From positions 3,527,219-3,591,218 of the forward strand of contig NZ_CP094828.1 of the NCBI RefSeq assembly GCF_022865125.1: a stretch of 64,000 nucleotides of DNA. The letters run 5' to 3'. Below are positions 6,783-17,289 of this stretch, piece by piece; position 1 is the stretch's first letter, and the number at the start of each line of letters is the position of its first letter. The translations under genes were made by a program, and so were the position numbers. The notes beneath the pieces are model-generated. The model did not search any database. It was not told the origin of the DNA and worked only from the letters and a program-made list of their open reading frames with translations. The DNA is from Acuticoccus sp. I52.16.1. GTDB taxonomy: Bacteria; Pseudomonadota; Alphaproteobacteria; Rhizobiales; Amorphaceae.

Positions 6783-7535
6783 TCAGACGGCGAGGTACTC
6801 TTCGCGCAGCGCCTTGTCGTCCAGCACCTCCTTGGCGGTGCCGGTATAGACGATCTCGCCCATGTCCATGATGATGGCGCGGTCGGCGAGGTGCAGCGCG
6901 GCGATCGCGTTCTGCTCGACCATGATGGTGGTGATGCCGGCGTCCTTGATCTCGGCGACGATCCGCTCGATCTCCTGGACGATCACGGGGGCGAGCCCCT
7001 CGTAGGGCTCGTCGAGCAGCAGGAGCTTCAGCTCGCGGCACAGCGCGCGGGCGACGGCCAGCATCTGTTGCTCGCCGCCCGACATGGTGACGGCCTCCTG
7101 CCGGCGCCGCTCGGCGAGGCGGGGAAAGCGCTGGTACACCTCCTCGATGTCCCAGCCCTTCGGCTCGGCGATCTGCGCCAGCTTCAGGTTCTCCTCCACC
7201 GTCAGTCCGGCGATGATGCGTCGATCCTCGGGCACCAGCTGCAGGCCGGCCTGTGCGGCGCCGACCGCGTTGGTCTTGTGCAGCGCCTTGCCGCCCAGCC
7301 AGATCTCGCCCTTGCGCATCTGCGGCGTGTCGGTCCGGGCGATAGTGCGCAAGGTGGACGTCTTGCCGGCGCCGTTGCGGCCCAGCAGCGCGATCACCTC
7401 GCCCTCGGCGACGTCGAACGACACGCCCTGCACGATGTAGCTCTCGCCGTAGTAGGCGTGCACGTCGCGGCAGGAGAAGAACGGTTCGGCGACCGTGGCC
7501 GGCGCCGGGGCGGCGAGGGTGTCAGCGGCGGACAT
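6783..7535 (-). CDS. livF: Branched-chain amino acid-type ABC transporter ATPase LivF
   Basis: A 250-residue ABC ATPase of the LivF class, the second ATPase of hydrophobic amino-acid/amide (HAAT) importers. Walker A is GRNGAGKT (residues 52-59). The signature is MSGGEQQM, Walker B is LLLLDEPYEGLAP, and the H-loop is TIMVEQN. An open frame reaches 7805, but residues before MSAADT belong to the overlapping livG frame. The ATG at 7535 overlaps the livG stop as TGATG. It is the last gene of livJ-livH-livM-livG-livF on the minus strand. Confidence 0.93.
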   Translation of the reverse strand: MSAADTLAAPAPATVAEPFFSCRDVHAYYGESYIVQGVSFDVAEGEVIALLGRNGAGKTSTLRTIARTDTPQMRKGEIWLGGKALHKTNAVGAAQAGLQLVPEDRRIIAGLTVEENLKLAQIAEPKGWDIEEVYQRFPRLAERRRQEAVTMSGGEQQMLAVARALCRELKLLLLDEPYEGLAPVIVQEIERIVAEIKDAGITTIMVEQNAIAALHLADRAIIMDMGEIVYTGTAKEVLDDKALREEYLAV

Positions 7536-8296
7536 CAGTGGGCTCCTCCGAGGTAGGCTTCCTGCACCTTGGGGTCGCGGCGGACCTCTTCGGGGGTGCC
7601 TTGGGCGATGATCCGTCCGCCGGCCAGCACAGAGACGGTGTCGGCCAGCGAGAAGACGACGTGCATGTCGTGCTCGATGATCACCTTCGTCATCCCGCTC
7701 GCCTTGATCTTCTGCAAAAGGTCGATCGTGCGATTGGTGTCGAGGCGGCTCATGCCGGCGGTCGGCTCGTCGAGCAGCAGGAGCTTGGGCCGCTGGACGA
7801 GGCACATCGCCAGCTCCAGCCGCCGCTTGTCGCCGCGCGACATGGAGCTGGCGTCGTCGTGCCGCTTGTCGGCGAGGCCGAGGTCCTCGAGGATCTCCTC
7901 GGCGGCGAGGCGGATGTCGGTGTCGCCGTCGAGCGGGCTCATGATGTTGAGCCGCAGCGGCCCGTCGCGCTTGGCGTAGGCCGGGACCATCACGTTCTGC
8001 AGCAGCGTCAGGTCGTTGAAGATCTCCGGCGTCTGGAAGACGCGGGCGATGCCGAGCTGGTTGATCTCGTGCGGCTTCTTGCCGGTGATCACCGTTCCGT
8101 CGAACACCACCGCGCCCTCGTCGGGGATGATGCGTCCGACCACCACGTTGAGGAGGGTCGATTTGCCCGCGCCGTTGGGGCCGATGATGGCGTGGGTCTT
8201 CGCCTCGGTAATGGTGAGGTCGATGTCCGACAGCGCCTTCAGCCCGGCGAAGTTCTTCTGCACGTCGGCGACGTGGAGCACCTTGTTGTCGACCAT
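7535..8296 (-). CDS. livG: Branched-chain amino acid-type ABC transporter ATPase LivG
   Basis: A 253-residue ABC ATPase with Walker A GPNGAGKST (residues 39-47) and Walker B LLLLDEPTAGM. The signature is the divergent MSRGDKRRLE instead of LSGGQ, a form I associate with one HAAT subgroup. The partner LivF overlaps it by one base and LivM ends 1 bp upstream, so translation of the three is probably coupled. The two ATPases power the membrane subunits LivH and LivM. Confidence 0.92.
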   Translation of the reverse strand: MVDNKVLHVADVQKNFAGLKALSDIDLTITEAKTHAIIGPNGAGKSTLLNVVVGRIIPDEGAVVFDGTVITGKKPHEINQLGIARVFQTPEIFNDLTLLQNVMVPAYAKRDGPLRLNIMSPLDGDTDIRLAAEEILEDLGLADKRHDDASSMSRGDKRRLELAMCLVQRPKLLLLDEPTAGMSRLDTNRTIDLLQKIKASGMTKVIIEHDMHVVFSLADTVSVLAGGRIIAQGTPEEVRRDPKVQEAYLGGAH

Positions 8297-8297
8297 G

Positions 8298-9530
8298 TCA
8301 GCGCTCCTTGGACCGGAAGAGGCGGCCGATGCGGCGGAACCCTTCCACCAGGCCGCCCGGCAGGAAGATGACGACGATCATGAAGATGACGCCCAGCGTC
8401 AGATGCCAGCCTTCGCCCACGAACGGGGCCACAACGTAGACGACGGCATGGTCGAGCCACTGCGGCAGGAAGGAGAAGGCGTCGACCAGGGTGGAATCGC
8501 CCAGCGAGGAGAAGATGTTCTCGAAGTACTTGATGATCACCGCGCCGATGAACGGGCCGATCAGCGTACCGGCGCCGCCCAGGATGGTCATCAGCACGAC
8601 CTCGCCCGAGGCGGTCCACTGCATGCGCTCGGCGCCGGCGAGCGGGTCGACCACCGCCAGGAGCCCCCCCGCGAGACCGGCATACATGCCCGAAATGATG
8701 AAGGCGACGAGGGTGTAGGGCCGCGTGTTGAAGCCGACATAGGACATGCGCACCTGGTTCGACTTGATGCCGCGCAGCATCATGCCGAAGGGCGAGCGGG
8801 TGATCCGCAGCGCGATGTAGAAGGCGATCATCAGGCAGATGGCGCAGGTCCAGAACCCGGCCATGCCGGTGATCTGCACGCCGAAGATCTCCGCCCGCGG
8901 CACCGCGACGGCGGCGTCCCCGAACGCGGCGTCGATCACGCGCGGGTCGTCGCGCAGGACGCGCAGGCCGGTCTCGCCGTTGGTGATCGGCGTCAGCACC
9001 GAGTAGGCGAGGTTGTAGCACATCTGCGCGAAGGCGAGCGTCAGGATCGAGAAGTAGATGCCCGAGCGCCGCAGCGACACGTAGCCGATGACGACCGCGA
9101 AGACGCCCGCCATCAAGGTGGAGCAGACGATCGCCGGGATGATGTTCAGCGACAAGAGCTTGAACGACCACACCGCGGTGTAGGACCCGACGCCGAGGAA
9201 GGCGGCGTGCCCGAACGAGAGGTAGCCCGTCAGCCCGAACAGGATGTTGAAGCCGATCGCGAAGATCCCGTAGATCGCGAACCGCTGCATCAGGTCCGGG
9301 TAGGCCGCGCCGAACGGTTGCAGCCAGATCGGCATCGTGAAGACGACGATGCCGAAGAGGACCGTCATCACGATGTCGCGCTTGGGCGGCCACAGCGGGG
9401 CCATGTCCGGGCCGAGCGGCGGCAGCTGCGTCGGCACCGCACCGCTGGTCCGGTAGAAGGCCGACTGGCTCTTGGGCTTGTCGACGACGGGGGTGGCGAA
9501 GGGCGATTCGGTGTCGCGTGCCTGATCCAT
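8298..9530 (-). CDS. livM: ABC transporter permease LivM
   Basis: A 410-residue permease with ~10 hydrophobic segments. Residues 1-55 form a hydrophilic, Pro/Lys-containing cytoplasmic extension before the first helix. The LivM motif [16 protein letters not shown] and the later [14 protein letters not shown] region, which couples to the ATPase, are conserved. The final ~20 residues ([13 protein letters not shown]) form a basic cytoplasmic tail. It pairs with LivH to form the channel. The genes abut directly: livH stops at 9531 and livM starts at 9530. Confidence 0.92.
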
Positions 9531-10547
9531 TTACGCCTCCATCACGCCTTTGCGGCCAAGCAGACCGCGCGGTCTGGTGAGCAGCACGACCACGGCGACG
9601 AGGTAGATGATGACTTGGTCGATGCCGGGGAGCAGGGACTTCACCTCGTTGAGGGAGGCGAAGGACTGCAGCATGCCAAGGAGGAACCCGGCGGCGACCG
9701 CGCCGGGGAGGGAGCCCATGCCGCCGACCACGACGACGACGAAGGAGAGCACCAGGAACTCCATGCCGATGTTGTAGTTGGGCGGCTGGATGCCGGTGTA
9801 GAGCGCGCCCGCCAGCCCCGCGACGACCGCGGCGAGCCCGAAGACGATGGTGAACCGGCGCTGGATGTTGATGCCGAGGAGCTGCACCGTCTCGCGGTCG
9901 GCCATGCCGGCGCGCACGACCATGCCGTAGGTGGTGAGATTGAGGAAGGCGAAGACGCCGCCGATGATGAGGACCGACGAGACGAGGTAGATCAGCCGCC
10001 ACCACGGGTAGGAGAGGTTGGCGTCGAGCCCCAGGATGGCGCCGATGTCGGCCGAGCCGCGCACGATCTCGGGCGGCTGCACCGGGATCGGATTGGCACC
10101 GAACCAGGCCTTGATGATCTCCGCCAGCACGATGGCGAGGCCGAAGGTGACGAGGATCTGCTCGGCGTGGGGCCGCTTGTAGAAGAAGCGGATGAGGCCG
10201 CGCTCCATCAGGATGCCGACGAGGAGCATGATCGGGATCGAGACCAGCAGCGAGATCGGGATCACCCAGTCGATGATCGCCGCGCCCGTGTCGCCGAACC
10301 AGGAGACCAGGTGAGGCTGCTCGATATAGGCCTCGAAGAAGGTGATCGATTCGTCGCGGACCCGCTCGGAGATGGTGAGCAGTTGCTGCACGCCGACGAC
10401 GCAGAAGGCGCCGAGCATGAACAGCGCCCCATGCGCGAAGTTGACGACGCCGAGCGTGCCGAACGTCAAGGTCAGGCCCAGCGCGATCAGCGCGTAGGCG
10501 CCGCCTTTGTCGAGCCCGTTGAGGATCTGGAGCAGTATGGCGTCCAT
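9531..10547 (-). CDS. livH: ABC transporter permease LivH
   Basis: A 338-residue polytopic permease of the LivH class. The N-terminal core shows GLDKGGAYALIALGLTLTFGTLGVVNFAHGA. The coupling-helix region is GGMGSLPGAVAAGFLLG. The first methionine of the open frame is at 10574, but ATG 10547 (MDAILLQIL) has GGTGGGAAGG 5 bp upstream and matches family starts. Relative to compact homologues it has extra sequence between the first helices (residues ~50-85). It is separated from the binding-protein gene livJ by a 332-bp gap with a strong hairpin. Confidence 0.92.
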   Translation of the reverse strand: MDAILLQILNGLDKGGAYALIALGLTLTFGTLGVVNFAHGALFMLGAFCVVGVQQLLTISERVRDESITFFEAYIEQPHLVSWFGDTGAAIIDWVIPISLLVSIPIMLLVGILMERGLIRFFYKRPHAEQILVTFGLAIVLAEIIKAWFGANPIPVQPPEIVRGSADIGAILGLDANLSYPWWRLIYLVSSVLIIGGVFAFLNLTTYGMVVRAGMADRETVQLLGINIQRRFTIVFGLAAVVAGLAGALYTGIQPPNYNIGMEFLVLSFVVVVVGGMGSLPGAVAAGFLLGMLQSFASLNEVKSLLPGIDQVIIYLVAVVVLLTRPRGLLGRKGVMEA

Positions 10548-10879
10548 CGAGCCTTCCCACCGTGATAGCCGCATGAATGCACCGGACCGCAGTCCCCTGG
10601 GGCTGCGGTCGCCGGACGTGTCGGTGCTGTCGAAGTCGAAGCGGTCCGGAGCCGCGTGCTCGCGGGGGGCGGGCCGCGCGGCCGCCGGTCCCTGCGGGCG
10701 ATGAGGGGCGGCGCCGTGCGTCGCCCGCTCGTCACGCTGGTGCGAACGCCGGCCGCCGCGCCCCGATCGGGATCGCTGCGGGCCGGCGCCGCCGCCTCGT
10801 GGTGTGGGAGGCGGGCGCCGGGGCCCGCCGTCCGCGTCGTCGAAGCGGGGTGCCCGTCACCGGGCGCCCGCGCCGTGCC
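10548..10879. other. livJ-livH intergenic region
   Basis: 332 bp without a credible gene; the short frames crossing it are very Arg/Ala-rich shadows. It carries the strong palindrome listed at 10585-10610. A second GGCGGGC/GCCCGCC hairpin lies near 10809-10828, close to the livJ stop. Neither has a T-run. Confidence 0.6.
10585..10610 (-). promoter_or_regulatory. Strong inverted repeat between livJ and livH
   Basis: GACCGCAG (10585-10592) pairs with CTGCGGTC (10603-10610), and the inner CCCC and GGGG extend the pairing around a tight loop. It lies ~38 bp upstream of the livH start. Lacking a T-run, it looks more like an mRNA-stabilising or processing stem than a full terminator. Such stems often keep binding-protein mRNA in excess over permease mRNA. 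Confidence 0.45.
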
Positions 10880-12232
10880 TCAGGCCGCGCAGCCGGCGAC
10901 CTCGTAGGGGCCGAGTTCGCCGCCGAAGATCGACGCGTCGTACGTGACGTCGGCGCGCGGGACGATCTTGTAGACCGGCAGCAGGTCGAACTCGGAGGAG
11001 GGCTTCTCGTTGCCGCGCACCACGAGCACGTCCTTGAAGCACTGGTGGTCGGTGTCGCGGTAGAGGGTCGGGCCGTTGCCCATGCCGTCGAACTCGAAGC
11101 CTTCGAGGGCCTTGATGACTTCCGGCGGGGCGAAGGTGCCGGCGGTCTCGACCGCGTTGGCGTAGAGGAGGGTCTGCACGTAGCAGGTGTGGGCCGCCTG
11201 CGAGGGCGGACGCCCGTATTCCTGGCCGAACGACTTGGCGAACGCCTGGCTGCCCGGGTTGTCCAGCATCCAGGACCAGTTGGAGGTGCCGAAGATGCCG
11301 GCGACGTTCTCGCCCGCGCCCTGGGCCATCAGCTCGGAGAACAGCGGCACGACGATCTCGAAGGTCTTGCCGTTGACCTGCTTCTCGCGCATGCCGAACT
11401 GCACCGCCTGCGTCAGCGAGTTCACGAGGTCGCCGCCGTAGTGGTTGAGGATGAGGACGTCCGCGCCGGAATTGAGAACCGGGGTGAGGTACTGCGAGAA
11501 GTCACCCGCGCCGAGCGGGGTGCGGACCGTCTGCGTGGTGCCCCAGCCCTGCTTCTCGGTGGCGTCCTTGATCGATTCTTCCTGCGTCCAGCCCCAGGTA
11601 TAGTCGGCGGTGAGGTGGTAGGCCTGACGGTCCTTGCCGTACGCCTCGGCGACGACCGCGCCCAGCGCCTGGCCGGACTGGTAGGCGTTGAAGAAGTGGC
11701 GGAAGCCGTAGCGGCGCTTGTCCTTGCCGGTGGTGTCGTTGGAGTGGGTGAGGCCGGCCATGAAGACCACGCCCATCTCCTGGCAGAGCGACTGCACGGC
11801 GATGGCGACGCCCGACGACGAGCCGCCGGACACCATGATGACGCCATCCTTCTCGATCATGCGGCGGGCGGAGGCGCGGGCGGCGTCGGACTTGGTCTGC
11901 GTGTCGCCGGTGACGAACTCGACCTTCTTGCCGAGGATACCGTTGCCCTTCAGGTTGGAGGGCTTGAAGGTGGTCATCATCCCGCCGTCGCCCTCGCCGT
12001 TGAGGTGCTTCACGGCGAGCTCGAAGGCGCGCAGCTCATCCTTGCCCTCTTCGGCGTAGGGGCCGGTCTGGGGCACGTTGAAGCCGAGCGTGACGGTGGA
12101 CCCGCTGGGGTTGTTACAGAACTCCTGGGCCCACGCGCCGCGGGTAAAGAAGGTCGGCGCCGCGAGGGCCGCCCCCGCGAGTGCTGTGCCGTGAAGAAAA
12201 CGACGGCGGGACGGCCGGATAATCTTTGTCAT
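10880..12232 (-). CDS. livJ: Liv-type ABC transporter substrate-binding protein with Tat signal
   Basis: A 450-residue periplasmic binding protein of the type I (Leu/Ile/Val, amide, urea) group. Residues 1-36 form a twin-arginine signal with SRRRFLHG and a hydrophobic stretch ending at AWAQ, so export of a folded protein is likely. The mature part begins VTLGFNVPQTGPYAEEGKDELRAFELAV, typical of the fold. ATG 12232 has GGGAGGAAAG just upstream; the frame runs 110 codons further without similarity. The ligand cannot be assigned: it could be a branched-chain amino acid, a short amide or urea. It is the first gene of the livJHMGF cluster and divergent from the unusual regulator at 12611. Confidence 0.88.
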   Translation of the reverse strand: MTKIIRPSRRRFLHGTALAGAALAAPTFFTRGAWAQEFCNNPSGSTVTLGFNVPQTGPYAEEGKDELRAFELAVKHLNGEGDGGMMTTFKPSNLKGNGILGKKVEFVTGDTQTKSDAARASARRMIEKDGVIMVSGGSSSGVAIAVQSLCQEMGVVFMAGLTHSNDTTGKDKRRYGFRHFFNAYQSGQALGAVVAEAYGKDRQAYHLTADYTWGWTQEESIKDATEKQGWGTTQTVRTPLGAGDFSQYLTPVLNSGADVLILNHYGGDLVNSLTQAVQFGMREKQVNGKTFEIVVPLFSELMAQGAGENVAGIFGTSNWSWMLDNPGSQAFAKSFGQEYGRPPSQAAHTCYVQTLLYANAVETAGTFAPPEVIKALEGFEFDGMGNGPTLYRDTDHQCFKDVLVVRGNEKPSSEFDLLPVYKIVPRADVTYDASIFGGELGPYEVAGCAA

Positions 12233-12610
12233 TTCTTTCCTCCCTGGGGGCGGGGCTGTGCCGCCCCTTGTCCACATCGTCCTGTATCGCGGCATTCCCG
12301 GCGCGCCACAACCGAACGGGTCGCGGTTGTCAAACATCTGTAAAGTTGCGCTGCGGCGCGATGCCCGGTTGTAAATTTGTGACCGGACGGTGGCGGGTCC
12401 ACGGCGCATGGCCACCTCGTTCAGGTTGCAAACTCGCTGTAAATCTGCACTGTAAACTTTCAGCGCGTTGACAAGCGGGGCGAGAATCTGGCGCTCGGGC
12501 CGTCGTTCCGGCGCCCGTCGCGCCGGCCGTACGGCGCAAAGCAAGAACCATAAGCCGACCACTCAGATCGCTCGACAAGGGCGGCGGGCCCGGCACCAGG
12601 GGAGACGCGC
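12233..12610. promoter_or_regulatory. Divergent control region between livJ and the HTH/DHp regulator
   Basis: This 378-bp gap separates two divergent transcription units. Its middle (about 12330-12475) is clearly more AT-rich than the flanks and holds five TGYAAA hexamers: 12339 (TGTAAA), 12370 (TGTAAA), 12427 (TGCAAA), 12438 (TGTAAA) and 12451 (TGTAAA). The last three are spaced 11 and 13 bp. Regulators related to RamB/PccR are known to bind TTTGCAAA-like sites, so the array is a plausible operator for the adjacent regulator. No clean -35/-10 pair was found. Confidence 0.55.
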
Positions 12611-14008
12611 ATGGCGACGGTGCAGCGCGTACCGATCGGCGACCGCATCCGGTCGCAGCGGCGCACACGCGGGGTGACGCAGCGCGACCTCGCGTCCTCC
12701 ATCGGCGTTTCGCCGGCCTACCTGTCGCTGATCGAGAGCGACAAGCGTCAGATCGGCGGCCGGCTGCTGAAGCGCATCGCCGAGCGGCTCGGCGTGCCGA
12801 CCGACGCCTTCACCGTCGTCAGCGACGACCGCCTCGCCTCCGATCTGCACGAGGTGGCCCAGCGCATCGAGGCCGCGCCGCCCGGCATGGCCGCGCCGCT
12901 GGTCGCCTTCTCGCCCGAGTGGGCGCGCGTGGTGCTGGAGCTGCACACCCGCGCCATGACCGCCGAGGCCCGCGCCTTCCGCCTCGCCGACCGCTTCGCC
13001 CGTGACCCGCAGTGGACCTCGTTCGCGCACGACATCCTGTCGCGCATCACCTCGATCCGCTCCGCCGCCGAGATCCTCTCCGACGATTCCCCCCTCGACG
13101 ACGCCCAGCGCGAGCGCTTTACCGACACCGTGGTCGCCGAGAGCGCCCGGCTGACGGACGTCGCGCGCGACATGATCGCCGCGTTGCAGTCGGGCACGGC
13201 GGTGGACGCGGCGGGGGCGGACGTGCGCGAGGTGGACGCCTTCCTGCACGACAACAACAACTACTTCGGCATGATCGAGACGCTCCTGGAGGCGCACCCG
13301 TTGCCGCCGCTGGAGGGATCGCCCAGCGTGCGCTTCGCCGCCGCCCGTCGCGCCGTCGAGGAGCGCTTCCCGACGATCGTCGACGACGTCGTCGCCGGCC
13401 ACGAGTTTCGCACCGAGGGGGCGGAGCGGCGCGCGCGCGGTGCCATCTGGCGCTACGCGGCCGGCGCGGCGATGATGCCCTACCGCCCCTTCCTGGAGGC
13501 CGCGCTCGACGCCCGCTACGACCTCGACGAGCTCGCCGCCCGCTTCCGCGCCAGCTTCGAGCAGGTGGCCCACCGCCTCGCGACGCTGCGCCGGCCGGGC
13601 GAGGACGGGGTGCCCTTCGCCTTCCTGCGCGTCGACCCGGCCGGCACCGTCTCCAAGCGCCTGTCGACCGCGGCACTGCGACTGCCCCTCTTCGGCGCCT
13701 GCCCGCTATGGGTGGTGTACGAGACGTTCGCCCAGCCCGGCCGCACGCTGAGCCAGATGGTCGACCTCGACGGCGAGCGGTTCCTGCTGGTGGCGCGCGC
13801 AGTGGAGAAGACGCCGCGCCGCCAGGCCCAGCCACCGACGCGATTCTCGGTCATGCTGGGGGTCGCGGCCGAGCACGCCGGCGACGTCATCTACGGCGAC
13901 ACCTACATCTCGCACCGCGACAGCGTCGTGACCTACGCGGGCTACGAATGCCTATCCTGCAAACGGGCCGGCTGCCAGCAGCGCGCCCATGGCGCCGAGG
14001 TGGTCTGA
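12611..14008 (+). CDS. XRE/short-chain acyl-CoA-type transcriptional regulator with embedded HisKA-like (DHp) segment
   Basis: A 465-residue predicted cytoplasmic regulator. Residues ~8-65 are an XRE-type helix-turn-helix (IRSQRRTRGVTQRDLASSIG, AYLSLIESDKRQIGG). Residues ~215-465 match the IrrE-remnant plus DUF2083 (ScfR) half of RamB/PccR-like regulators. That half has YRPFLEAALDARYDLDELA, FLRVDPAGTVSKR, and the cysteine motif Cys447-x2-Cys450-x4-Cys455. Between them, residues ~130-195 resemble a histidine-kinase dimerisation helix pair. AHDILSRITSIRSAAEIL (His140 in place of the phosphoacceptor) aligns position by position with SHEMRTPVTAVRSFAELL of the kinase encoded 3.6 kb downstream. No ATPase domain is present. 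GGGGAGACGCGC precedes ATG 12611. It starts an operon with a receiver, a small membrane protein and a symporter-kinase. Confidence 0.8.
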   Translation: MATVQRVPIGDRIRSQRRTRGVTQRDLASSIGVSPAYLSLIESDKRQIGGRLLKRIAERLGVPTDAFTVVSDDRLASDLHEVAQRIEAAPPGMAAPLVAFSPEWARVVLELHTRAMTAEARAFRLADRFARDPQWTSFAHDILSRITSIRSAAEILSDDSPLDDAQRERFTDTVVAESARLTDVARDMIAALQSGTAVDAAGADVREVDAFLHDNNNYFGMIETLLEAHPLPPLEGSPSVRFAAARRAVEERFPTIVDDVVAGHEFRTEGAERRARGAIWRYAAGAAMMPYRPFLEAALDARYDLDELAARFRASFEQVAHRLATLRRPGEDGVPFAFLRVDPAGTVSKRLSTAALRLPLFGACPLWVVYETFAQPGRTLSQMVDLDGERFLLVARAVEKTPRRQAQPPTRFSVMLGVAAEHAGDVIYGDTYISHRDSVVTYAGYECLSCKRAGCQQRAHGAEVV

Positions 14009-14009
14009 G

Positions 14010-14360
14010 ATGCGGGTCCTGGTGGTCGAGGACGAGCCCCATATCGCCGAGGCGCTGACCTTCCTGCTCCAGCGCGAGGGGCACGAGGTGACGGTCGTCG
14101 CCAGCGGAGCCGACGCCGGCGAGCGGTTGCGCGGCTGCGACCTCCTGGTGCTCGACATCATGTTGCCGGGCCGCTCCGGGTTCGACATCGCGCGCGACGC
14201 GCTGGCGCTCAGCGAGCGGCCCAAGATCTGCGTGTTGACCGCCAAGGGCCAGCGGGAGGACCGCGAGCGAATGCTCGGCATGGGCGTGGACGCGTTCGTG
14301 TCGAAGCCCTTCTCCAACAGTGAGCTGATGGAGACGGTGCGCGGCCTCGCCGCCTCGTGA
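14010..14360 (+). CDS. Single-domain response regulator (receiver only)
   Basis: A 116-residue CheY-like receiver with no output domain. The acidic pocket is Glu7-Asp8, the phosphoacceptor is Asp49 in LLVLDIMLPG, the switch threonine is Thr77 in VLTAKG, and the lysine is Lys99 in SKPF. ATG 14010 follows the upstream stop by one base. An upstream in-frame ATG at 13989 lies inside the previous gene and is less likely. With no DNA-binding domain it must pass its signal by protein contact or phosphotransfer. The neighbours offer a cognate kinase (14644) and a transcription factor with a phosphoacceptor-like His (12611). Confidence 0.92.
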   Translation: MRVLVVEDEPHIAEALTFLLQREGHEVTVVASGADAGERLRGCDLLVLDIMLPGRSGFDIARDALALSERPKICVLTAKGQREDRERMLGMGVDAFVSKPFSNSELMETVRGLAAS

Positions 14361-14647
14361 GCGCTGGCCATCCTCCTGGGGCCGACGCCCCGTCGCCGGA
14401 CCGCACGCCGCACGAGCCGCCCCCGGTCGAGGCGCTGCCGCCGCCGCGCGCCACACGCTCCGGCGCCCGCGCCGACGCGCGCACGGTCGTCGCGCTCGCG
14501 GGGCCGGTGCTGTTCACGCCGGCCGCGCTGCTGCTGGCCGACCGGCCGATGCGGGTGTTCGATGTGCCGGCGATCCTCGTCTACGTCTTCAGCGTCTGGC
14601 TCGTCGGCATCGGCCTCACCTGGCTCCTGTCGAGGCCGCCGCGATGA
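14357..14647 (+). CDS. Small two-helix membrane protein preceding symporter-kinase
   Basis: A 96-residue protein of unknown function. Residues 1-42 are a Pro/Ala/Arg-rich hydrophilic region. Residues ~43-62 (VVALAGPVLFTPAALLLAD) and ~68-91 (FDVPAILVYVFSVWLVGIGL) are two predicted transmembrane helices, followed by the short tail SRPPR. It starts at GTG 14357, overlapping the receiver stop as GTGA, and its stop overlaps the symporter-kinase start as ATGA. Both overlaps argue for a real, coupled gene. A small membrane ORF (CbrX) overlaps the cbrA symporter-kinase gene of Pseudomonas in a similar way. The analogy is positional, and I cannot claim homology. Confidence 0.72.
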   Translation: MSAGHPPGADAPSPDRTPHEPPPVEALPPPRATRSGARADARTVVALAGPVLFTPAALLLADRPMRVFDVPAILVYVFSVWLVGIGLTWLLSRPPR

Positions 14648-17289
14648 CCCTGAGCGCGCCGCTCGTCATCACGGTGGGCGGGCTCTACCTGGCGCTCCTC
14701 TTCCTGGTGGCCTTCCTCACCGACCGCCTGGCCGAGCAGGGCCGCGCCCGCTTCCTCGCCTCGCCGATCGTCTACACCCTCTCGCTGGCGGTCTACTGCA
14801 CGTCGTGGACCTTCTTCGGCGCGGTGGGCACCGCGTCGCGCTCGGGGATCGAGTTCGTCACCATCTACATCGGCCCCACTCTGGCGCTGATGACCGGGTG
14901 GCTGTTCCTGCCCAAGATGGTGCGCATCGCCAAGGCGCAGCGCGTCACGTCGATCGCCGACTTCATGTCGTCCCGCTACGGCAAGAGCCGTGCGGTGGCG
15001 GTGCTGGTGACGGTGATCGCGCTGGCCTCGATCACGCCGTACATCGCGTTGCAGCTCATCGCCATCCGCCGCTCGTTCGTCGTCCTGTCGGGCGGGGAGG
15101 CGGACGGGACGGGGACGGCGTTCTGGGTCGCGGCGGTGATGGTGTTCTTCGTCATCGTCTTCGGCACGCGGCGGGTGAACGCGGACGAGAGTCAGCCCGG
15201 TATCGTCGCGGCGATCGCGTTCGAATCGATCGTCAAGCTGGCGGCGCTGCTGGCGGTGGCGGCGCTGGCGGCGGTGGTGCTGACGCGCGACCCGGCCGCC
15301 GGTTCGCTCTTCGCCAACGGGGCCACGGCGCTCGACGCGATCAGCGCCTTCAACGCCGGCGACGGCGCGCGGTGGACGACGCTGATGCTGCTGTCGGCCG
15401 CGGCGATCATCTGCCTGCCGCGTCAGTTCCAGGTGGCGGTGGTCGAGAACCGCTCGGAGGGGCACATCACCGTCGCCTCGTGGCTGTTCCCGGCCTACCT
15501 CTTCCTTCTCACGCTGGCGGCGGTGCCGATCGCGGCGGCGGGGCTCGTCGCGCTGCCGGCGGGCGCCGAGCCGGACCTCTACGTTCTCACGCTGCCCCTC
15601 TCGGAGGGCTCGGCGCTGCTGGCGCTGGCGGCGTTCGTCGGCGGCCTGTCGGCGGCGACGTCGATGGTGATCGTCGCCTCGCTGGCGCTGGCGGTGATGA
15701 TCTCCAACCACCTCGTCGCGCCGCTCCTCCTGGGGCGGGTGCACACGCCGGGCGGCGTCGGCGCGGCGGTCATGGTCACGCGCCGCCTCGCCATCGCCGG
15801 CGTCATCGGCCTCGGCACCCTCTATGCCGAGGCGCATGGGGCGGGCGGGGGGCTCGCCTCCATCGGCCTCATCGCCTTCGCGGGGGTGGCGCAGTTCGCG
15901 CCCGCGCTGCTGGCCGGGCTGTTCTGGCGCCGGGCCAACCGGTTCGGCGCCACGGCGGGCCTCGCCACCGGGGCGGCGCTGTGGGTGGCGCTCCTGTTGT
16001 TGCCGAGCTTCGGCGTCGGCCAGGGCCTGGTCTACGAGGTGCGCGCGATCCTCCTGCCGCCGGAGCAACTCTTCGGCGCCGGAGCGGTCGACCCGCTGGT
16101 GTTCGGCGTCGTGGTCTCGATCGCGACCAACGTCATCGTCTACGTTCTCACCTCGCTCGCCACCTCCGGCAGCGTGGTCGACGAACTGCAGGCCACCGTC
16201 TTCGTCGACGCGTTGCGCCGCGGCGGCTCGGAGCCGACCTTGCGCCGCTCGGCCAGCCGGCGCGAGCTGATGCGCCTCGCGCGCCGCATCCTCGGGTCCC
16301 AGCGTGCCGACGAGGTCTTCGCCGCGATGCGCACCACCACCGCCGAGGAGGCCGACTCCACCCTGATCGCCCAAGTCGAGCGCGAACTGGCCTTCGCCGT
16401 CGGCACCTCCTCGGCGCACACGCTGGTCACGCAGATCGCGATCGGCGAGCCGCTGGCGGTGGACGCCGCGATCATGCTCCTGCAGGAAACCCAGGAGGCG
16501 ATCGAGGCCGCCCGCGCGCTGGACATCCGCTCGGTCGAGCTGGAACGCTCGACCGCGGAACTCGCCACCACCAACGCCTCCCTCAAGGCCCTCCTGGCCG
16601 AGAAGGACGACTTCCTCAGCCGCGTCAGCCACGAGATGCGCACACCCGTGACCGCGGTGCGCTCGTTCGCCGAACTGTTGCGGGAAGGTGCCCTCGACCC
16701 GGACCGCGCCGCGCGCTTCGTCGACATCATCCTGGAGGAGAGCCGCCGCCTCAGCCGCCTGCTGGACGACATCCTCGACCTGTCGCGACTGGAGGCGGGG
16801 GTGGCGCCGATCCGGATGGACCGCATCGACGCCGCGGCCGCGATCGCCGAAGCCGCGGCGGTGATGGACGGGTTCGCGCAGCGTCAGGGCGCCTCGATCC
16901 GGGTGGAGGCGAACGGTCCGATCTTCGTGCGGGCGGACGCGGACCGGCTGAAGCAGGTGCTGGTGAACCTCCTCTCCAACGCGATCAAGTTCTGCGGCGG
17001 CGGTCCGGTGCTGATCAGCGTCACCACCGAGCAGAACACGGTGGTCATGCGGGTGCGCGACCAAGGGCCGGGGATCCCGGCGGACGTGCAGCCGCGCCTC
17101 TTCGGCAAGTTCATCAGCGGGGCGGCGCCGCACGGCATCCGCGGCGCGGGCCTGGGCCTCGCCATCTCGCGTCAGATCATGCGGGGGCTGGGCGGTTCGC
17201 TCACTCTCGAGGTCACCGGGCCGACCGGCTCGATCTTCGCCGCCCGCCTGCCGGTCGCGGTCGAGCCTCGCGCCCGCCTCGCCGGTTGA
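14644..17289 (+). CDS. Sodium:solute symporter-histidine kinase fusion (CbrA/CrbS-like)
   Basis: An 881-residue fusion. Residues ~1-500 are a sodium:solute symporter (SLC5) module of about 13 helices, with the conserved YSLAVYCTSWTFFGAVGTA-like start. A ~130-residue helical linker (LMRLARRILGSQRADEVF, then a heptad-rich stretch) leads to HisKA at ~655-720, with His663 in SHEMRTPVTAV. The HATPase domain covers ~760-870: N-box Asn779 in NLLSNAIKF, DQGPGIP, GLGLAISRQI. No receiver is attached, so the separate receiver at 14010 is the obvious partner. Relatives CbrA and CrbS sense amino acids or acetate-type carbon sources. The ligand here is unknown, and transport activity may or may not be retained. 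Confidence 0.92.
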   Translation: MTLSAPLVITVGGLYLALLFLVAFLTDRLAEQGRARFLASPIVYTLSLAVYCTSWTFFGAVGTASRSGIEFVTIYIGPTLALMTGWLFLPKMVRIAKAQRVTSIADFMSSRYGKSRAVAVLVTVIALASITPYIALQLIAIRRSFVVLSGGEADGTGTAFWVAAVMVFFVIVFGTRRVNADESQPGIVAAIAFESIVKLAALLAVAALAAVVLTRDPAAGSLFANGATALDAISAFNAGDGARWTTLMLLSAAAIICLPRQFQVAVVENRSEGHITVASWLFPAYLFLLTLAAVPIAAAGLVALPAGAEPDLYVLTLPLSEGSALLALAAFVGGLSAATSMVIVASLALAVMISNHLVAPLLLGRVHTPGGVGAAVMVTRRLAIAGVIGLGTLYAEAHGAGGGLASIGLIAFAGVAQFAPALLAGLFWRRANRFGATAGLATGAALWVALLLLPSFGVGQGLVYEVRAILLPPEQLFGAGAVDPLVFGVVVSIATNVIVYVLTSLATSGSVVDELQATVFVDALRRGGSEPTLRRSASRRELMRLARRILGSQRADEVFAAMRTTTAEEADSTLIAQVERELAFAVGTSSAHTLVTQIAIGEPLAVDAAIMLLQETQEAIEAARALDIRSVELERSTAELATTNASLKALLAEKDDFLSRVSHEMRTPVTAVRSFAELLREGALDPDRAARFVDIILEESRRLSRLLDDILDLSRLEAGVAPIRMDRIDAAAAIAEAAAVMDGFAQRQGASIRVEANGPIFVRADADRLKQVLVNLLSNAIKFCGGGPVLISVTTEQNTVVMRVRDQGPGIPADVQPRLFGKFISGAAPHGIRGAGLGLAISRQIMRGLGGSLTLEVTGPTGSIFAARLPVAVEPRARLAG

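Follow-up and report, generated by a model that had tools for sequence, protein, structure and literature searches.

The window, that is, the whole stretch of 64,000 nucleotides of Acuticoccus sp. I52.16.1 that was analyzed, contains a regulator gene followed on the same strand by genes for a single-domain receiver and a symporter-like histidine kinase, with a possible small open reading frame (ORF) between them, and faced by a divergent ABC transporter (Table 1). The three domains expected of the regulator (HTH, M78-like, and ScfRs) all scored above their Pfam cut-offs, while the NCBIfam RamB model reached 245 bits against a cut-off of 700. The same Pfam profile search gave no HATPase match in the regulator, i.e., no ATPase domain. 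PrpR (6cyy), RamB, and PccR share with the regulator the HTH, the M78 remnant, the ScfRs domain, and four Fe-S cysteines. In the alignment, C364, C447, C450, and C455 of the regulator are the counterparts of the four ligands of Mycobacterium tuberculosis PrpR, given as C363, C447, C450, and C455 for its [4Fe-4S] cluster in the available part of PMC6765138. Each ligand position holds cysteine in 60 of the 61 first-set rows and in 19 to 20 of the 20 later-set loci (both sets of loci are described below). A full-length structural model (built from 9 sequences; mean pLDDT of 62.4, with residues 131 to 190 at 46 to 61) had the PrpR chains of 6cyy as its best fold matches (1.4e-12), which suits the ScfR part. 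By its domain content, the protein is an ScfR/RamB-type transcription factor, for which binding of acyl-CoA and DNA is predicted.

Table 1. Features of the locus, in window coordinates
Feature	Position	Strand	Remarks
ABC ATPase (LivG-like)	7535..8296	-	Named by place and look
ABC permease (LivM-like)	8298..9530	-	Named by place and look
ABC permease (LivH/UrtB-like)	9531..10574	-	
Substrate-binding protein (LivK/UrtA-like)	10880..12232	-	Start codon 12230-12232; divergent from regulator
Divergent promoter region	12233..12610	.	TGTAAA at 12339, 12370, 12438, 12451 (sites span 12339-12456)
Regulator (ScfR/RamB-type)	12611..14008	+	HTH_3 13-66, DHp-like insert, M78 remnant 265-323, ScfRs 325-460
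DHp-like insert, residues 130-195	12998..13195	+	His140 codon 13028-13030; helices predicted at 133-157 and from 164 onward
Single-domain receiver	13989..14360 (alternative start 14010)	+	Response_reg E=1e-22; complete set of catalytic residues
Possible small ORF, 96 aa, GTG start	14357..14647	+	Two-segment membrane look, judged by eye
Symporter-like histidine kinase	14644..17289	+	HisKA 654-719, HATPase_c 765-871

The N-terminal 560 residues of the kinase, its symporter-like half (14644 to 16323), matched the solved histidine kinase 10ed_A along almost all of its length (2.8e-68), and Pfam SSF had no match anywhere in the genome, this half included. The divergent binding protein matched branched-chain amino acid-binding proteins (3i09; 5.3e-29), and its UrtA match was far under the cut-off. 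In Paracoccus ferrooxidans, an 80-aa ORF is annotated at the corresponding spot between receiver and kinase; counterparts of it were matched at 11 loci but not in the window.

Insert-bearing regulators and the DHp homology of the insert

Within the class, at least 45 of 385 genomes had a match covering the insert region (40 spanning the model, 1 partial, and 4 N-terminal only). A spanning match is in itself no proof of an insert, as shown by L113 to L115, three second matches or rows that span the model and yet are insertless, and five of the 40 spanning cases (G654, G680, G683, G616, and G735) were left out of the alignment. Among the matches listed for 398 genomes of the phylum, none from outside the class started before model position 198, that is, none covers the insert. 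The locus set left out L004 and L014 (which are the window itself), L013 (where the match is split over two frames), and identical sequences. Of the 57 insert-bearing sequences, 45 form set A6 after thinning of close relatives. A later set of 20 loci (18 of family f74 and 2 of f207) was picked from the phylum search afterwards and, as it comes from these two families and has near-copies, does not represent 20 independent cases. Two loci can be named: on plasmid pFER4 of P. ferrooxidans, regulator E3U26_20570 is accompanied by receiver 20565, small ORF 20560, and symporter 20555, and a second locus (the two being L222 and L223) belongs to Neorhizobium sp. SOG26, whose record is unannotated; the phosphoacceptor-type His is present in both. 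In a plasmid search with the window regulator, three matches among the 25 listed (H1, H13, and H14) were set aside, because they lie beside propionyl-CoA/acyl-CoA carboxylase genes and are hence PccR-like by neighborhood. One branch (L116 to L118, L136, and L199 to L216) has diverged C-terminal parts, with the search matching the N-terminal half only; it retains the hairpin and the His, and with few exceptions it has the Fe-S cysteines as well.

Residues 130 to 195 of the regulator read as they had been described in the original prediction. In the alignment with paralogues, an insert of ca. 64 residues (about 129 to 192) stood out, with a gap at its position in eight aligned paralogues, and an HMM of the insert had no match in 44 insertless regulators. 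Judged by these comparisons, the segment is a true insert. Pfam HisKA matched residues 138 to 188 of the regulator (E=0.0009; 19.7 bits) and, better, the 81-aa segment alone (5.8e-5; 23.5 bits), both below the curated cut-off of 26.9, and the NCBIfam kinase model CreC matched residues 124 to 189 at 1.3e-6, far under its own cut-off. An HMM built from the DHps of 47 symporter-kinases of related loci gave 40.7 bits with the window insert (2.3e-10 at Z=25000) and found all 57 inserts (best, 73.1 bits; weakest, 21.6 bits), while 11,400 shuffled inserts reached at most 12.5 bits and the 44 insertless regulators at most 3.2 bits. The profile search thus returned significant matches, and direct alignment of the insert with the kinase DHp, both from the window, gave a score of 81, whereas none of 5,000 shuffles exceeded 51.

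With E values up to 10 allowed, Pfam HisKA picked up 48 of the 57 inserts (best, 3.6e-11), and some relatives carry nearly canonical H-boxes missing only the proline (e.g., THELRTFLTSIRSFSEIL in L104 and SHELRTLLTTVRSFSEIL in L138), the former matching a kinase model at 1e-10. Against the PDB, the insert profile matched HK853 (1.4e-5) and DivL (6.4e-4); the top row was that of protein A repeats (2.8e-6), in which no single stretch passed alone. Chance resemblance is excluded by the shuffles, by the insertless regulators, and by the ranking within genomes described below. Profile homology identifies the insert as a homologue of DHp (HisKA) domains. It shares with the HisKA/DHp domains of HK853, CreC, and PnpS the profile itself, a phosphoacceptor-type His, a Thr or Ser at +4, and the second helix, but, unlike them, it lies in a transcription factor with no ATPase domain, is relaxed at the Glu(+1) position, and has no Pro(+5). 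The full-length model and a structural model of the segment from 103 to 209 (6 sequences; pLDDT of 74.1; helices at 104 to 128, 133 to 157, and 164 to 207), both of low to moderate confidence, show a helical hairpin that is compatible with a DHp; a Foldseek search with the hairpin model gave no significant DHp match, its best row being a designed bundle (E=0.1) and HK853 (4jav) appearing at E=1.0.

To find the kinase closest to the insert, the insert profile (A4) was run against 12 genomes. The regulator ranked first and the symporter-kinase of its own cluster second (1.6e-20 to 1.1e-14) in 11 of them, followed by the next kinase at 1e-7 to 3.5e-4. In the twelfth (G128), there was no regulator-like score, and the best match (1.7e-18) was a 628-aa frame at C210:1171-1353. 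A likeness to any kinase at all is thereby set aside, as the own-cluster kinase leads by at least 7 orders of magnitude in E value in those 11 genomes; in the genome of the window too, no kinase is closer to the insert than this symporter-kinase with its DHp. In a tree of 87 rows (insert columns excluded, quick method, L138 and L199 left out as short or partial), the insert appeared as one change with a support of 92, for which the midpoint root leaves both directions, gain and loss, possible. The near-canonical L104, L106, L107, and L112 clustered with insertless rows. Together, the ranking and the tree suggest that the regulator captured the DHp of its partner kinase once.

Residues kept and lost in the hairpin

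Residues were counted in the 57 first-set inserts and in 47 symporter-kinases; these counts, like those on the receivers and the later set, include near-copies (e.g., L128/L133, L084/L087, L201/L202, and L214/L215). The phosphoacceptor position is His in all 47 kinases and in 52 inserts, the remainder having Phe (3), Gln (1), or Tyr (1), and it is His in all 20 loci of the later set. Rather than being randomly replaced, His140, the predicted counterpart of the phosphoacceptor, is therefore conserved at 72 of 77 loci. Position +1 is Glu in all 47 kinases, while in the inserts it is Arg (20), Gln (10), Asp (8), Glu (8), Ala (4), Ser (3), Lys (2), or another residue (2). The acid after His140, which had been likened to that of true H-boxes, is present in the window, but as a feature of the family it did not stand (Glu or Asp in 16 of 57 inserts), and the lack of an acid in most relatives speaks against kinase-like chemistry. 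The kinases are likewise uniform at +3 (Arg), +4 (Thr), and +5 (Pro). At +3, the inserts have Leu (47), Arg (7), Val (2), or Ile (1); at +4, Thr (38), Ser (16), Asn (2), or Asp (1), so that Thr, Ser, or Asn is found in 56 of 57, with Ser144 in the window and Ser (18) or Thr (2) in the later set. Proline at +5 is absent from all 57 inserts and all 20 later-set loci, so the loss noted for the window is common to all of them. Further along, +10 is Arg in 50, +11 Ser in 53, +14 Glu in 51, and +15 Ile in all 57 inserts.

The meaning of these positions is known from HisKA kinases. According to the available part of PMC3510030, the acid at +1 is required for kinase but not phosphatase activity, Thr or Asn at +4 is required for phosphatase but not kinase activity, the His aids phosphatase activity while not being strictly required for it, and replacement of Pro(+5) in CrdS lowers phosphatase activity; none of the variants reported in that part has Ser(+4), the residue of the window. 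With +1 relaxed, +5 lost, and the His and +4 kept, the kinase features of the insert appear relaxed or lost and the receiver-facing ones retained. We therefore consider it likely, judging from sequence, that the hairpin is a kinase-dead DHp module acting as the port through which the regulator reads its receiver, whichever of two forms the docking takes.

In the first form, to which we give a little less than an even chance, the phosphorylated receiver would donate its phosphoryl group to His140, making the transcription factor a His-phosphorylated output. The His is among the most conserved positions of the insert although Glu(+1), which serves the ATP step only, is relaxed, and the receivers are intact (see below); however, since the His also aids phosphatase activity in known kinases, its conservation is no proof of transfer. 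In the second, which we hold possible but well short of even, the receiver would bind the hairpin but transfer nothing covalently, and the regulator would read the occupancy or strip the phosphoryl group from the receiver. The Thr, Ser, or Asn at +4 argues for this form, as do the five loci with Phe, Tyr, or Gln in place of the His and the pseudo-kinase DivL, already met as a PDB match, which reads DivK in this way (available part of PMC9430884). On the other hand, those five His-less loci have no adjacent receiver, and Pro(+5) is lost, a kind of change that made CrdS a weaker phosphatase and that argues against a strong phosphatase here. A direct route, in which the catalytic domain of the symporter-kinase pairs with the DHp of the regulator and phosphorylates His140, would draw on the close kinship of the two DHps, but it is very improbable given that Glu(+1), the kinase-step residue, is relaxed and that the kinase half is membrane-bound.

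In the inserts of L105, L108, L109, and L110, Phe or Tyr replaces the His in an otherwise near-canonical hairpin with Arg(+3) and Thr or Asp(+4); they resemble the pseudo-kinase DivL, and no receiver adjoins them.

Linkage to receiver, kinase, and transporter genes

Clustering of neighboring ORFs was swamped by antisense frames, the DNA being GC rich, and named queries were used instead. Counting as adjacent a same-strand gene no more than 700 bp away (a limit chosen after the distances were seen), a cognate-type receiver adjoins the regulator at 45 of 57 first-set and 17 of 20 later-set loci, in total 62 of 77, against none of the 44 insertless controls. In the later set, receiver and symporter-kinase both adjoin the regulator at 17 of 20 loci. 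The controls are ScfR/IsaR relatives and, unlike the window regulator, have no DHp insert, no such receiver, and no symporter-kinase beside them; 40 of the 44 are shorter stretches (6.6 to 11.4 kb, versus 3.6 to 19.8 kb for insert-bearing loci), which has little effect for an adjacent gene. Receiver and symporter-kinase genes are thus linked to the insert. In 70 receivers, chosen by a score of >100 bits, the phosphoacceptor Asp, one Asp of the acidic pocket, and the Lys are invariant (70/70), and the other two sites are Thr (66) or Ser (4) and Glu (67) or Asp (3).

Next to two of the controls (L145 and L148), at distances of 209 and 457 bp, lies a same-strand frame of ca. 350 aa whose receiver match is weaker (58 and 61 bits), possibly a separate tie of this regulator family to two-component genes; weak receiver matches in two others (L140 and L147) lie >3 kb away.

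The five His-less inserts (L103, L105, L108, L109, and L110) all fall within the 12 first-set loci that have no adjacent receiver, but on the tree the losses of His and receiver coincide in two events only, too few for the link to reach significance. Conversely, 10 of the 77 loci have kept the His with no receiver adjacent (L082, L088, L100, L102, L106, L107, L138, L201, L202, and L207, of which L138 stops at a contig end). These ten loci speak for a relic of the capture that serves in dimerization or spacing only and makes no receiver contact. DHps dimerize, this being a general property of the domain, and PrpR, a relative with no insert, is tetrameric (PMC6765138, available part). Yet the His, the Thr or Ser at +4, Arg(+10), and Ser(+11) have been kept while their neighbors drifted, and the receiver is linked to the insert in the comparison given above (62/77 versus 0/44), for which reasons we regard a mere relic as unlikely.

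The divergent transporter is linked to the insert in a similar manner. LivK-like genes were found at 63, LivH at 62, LivM at 62, and LivG at 61 of the 77 insert-bearing loci, each being absent from the 44 controls, and the gap between LivK and the regulator was 269 to 516 bp in all 63 cases. The link persists at the five loci that have lost both His and receiver, so the receiver is not required for it. The regulator of P. ferrooxidans has no such transporter beside it and another two-component pair upstream.

In the 63 intergenic regions, TGTAAA occurs at a mean of 2.14 copies versus 0.15 in shuffles (at least one copy in 61 and at least two in 49), the spacings met most often in direct orientation being 32 bp (19 cases) and 31 bp (8 cases). 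The sites in the window (Table 1) are probably the operator of the regulator, as predicted from this enrichment. The sequence TTTGCAAA, which we take to be the RamB/PccR-type box, was rejected as the operator, having no match in the window and matches in 3 of the 63 intergenic regions, where TGTAAA is enriched instead. The RamB of Paracoccus, a relative, recognizes a pair of nearly identical boxes separated by 18 bp (PMC10370305, in the part available).

Proposed signaling route and relation to known systems

If the hairpin acts as a receiver-reading port, the symporter-kinase would control whether the output-less receiver is phosphorylated, and the receiver would then engage the hairpin around His140 and Ser144, the hairpin surface presumably being a copy of the kinase's own. 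Engagement would alter the action of the regulator at the promoters of the divergent ABC transporter and of its own operon, and the receiver input would add to the ligand sensing by the ScfR part. We infer the docking, the direction of its effect, and the DNA targets in the same way as the capture from the partner kinase. Precedents exist in alphaproteobacteria, where the single-domain receivers DivK and Osp act on the transmitter domains of DivL and CckA, respectively (PMC9430884, available part). Their targets, however, are a kinase or pseudo-kinase, while that in the window is a DNA-binding regulator. Similarly, the SLC5/STAC kinases of CrbS/R and RpuS/R are symporter-type kinases tied to carbon uptake, but they are hybrid kinases that work with LuxR-type regulators (as described in the accessible text of PMC9100948), whereas the kinase in the window has HisKA and HATPase matches only and accompanies a lone receiver and an ScfR factor.

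A case in print is Pden_1785 of Paracoccus denitrificans, an ScfR-network protein clustering with two-component genes; this linkage is already reported in PMC10370305. Pden_1785 itself was not studied in the part of that article available, the text of which contains neither "domain" nor "histidine"; it probably belongs to the family of DHp-insert regulators. The open-access literature, so far as its text was available, yielded no description of a DHp inside an ScfR or other HTH regulator.

If the proposed route is true, it is one way for a receiver with no output of its own to reach DNA, namely, by docking on a piece of a kinase that sits within a transcription factor. The insert would represent a natural split of the DHp, with the residues for kinase work relaxed or lost and those for the receiver kept, and near-canonical insert sequences survive in relatives. 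It would also connect the acyl-CoA regulators of carbon metabolism in alphaproteobacteria with a symporter-type kinase. Tentatively, the order of the two-component output may even be inverted here, running from the kinase His to the receiver Asp and on to His140 of the transcription factor, an arrangement that we rate as not quite an even bet; were it so, one protein would integrate His140 phosphorylation with acyl-CoA and Fe-S sensing.
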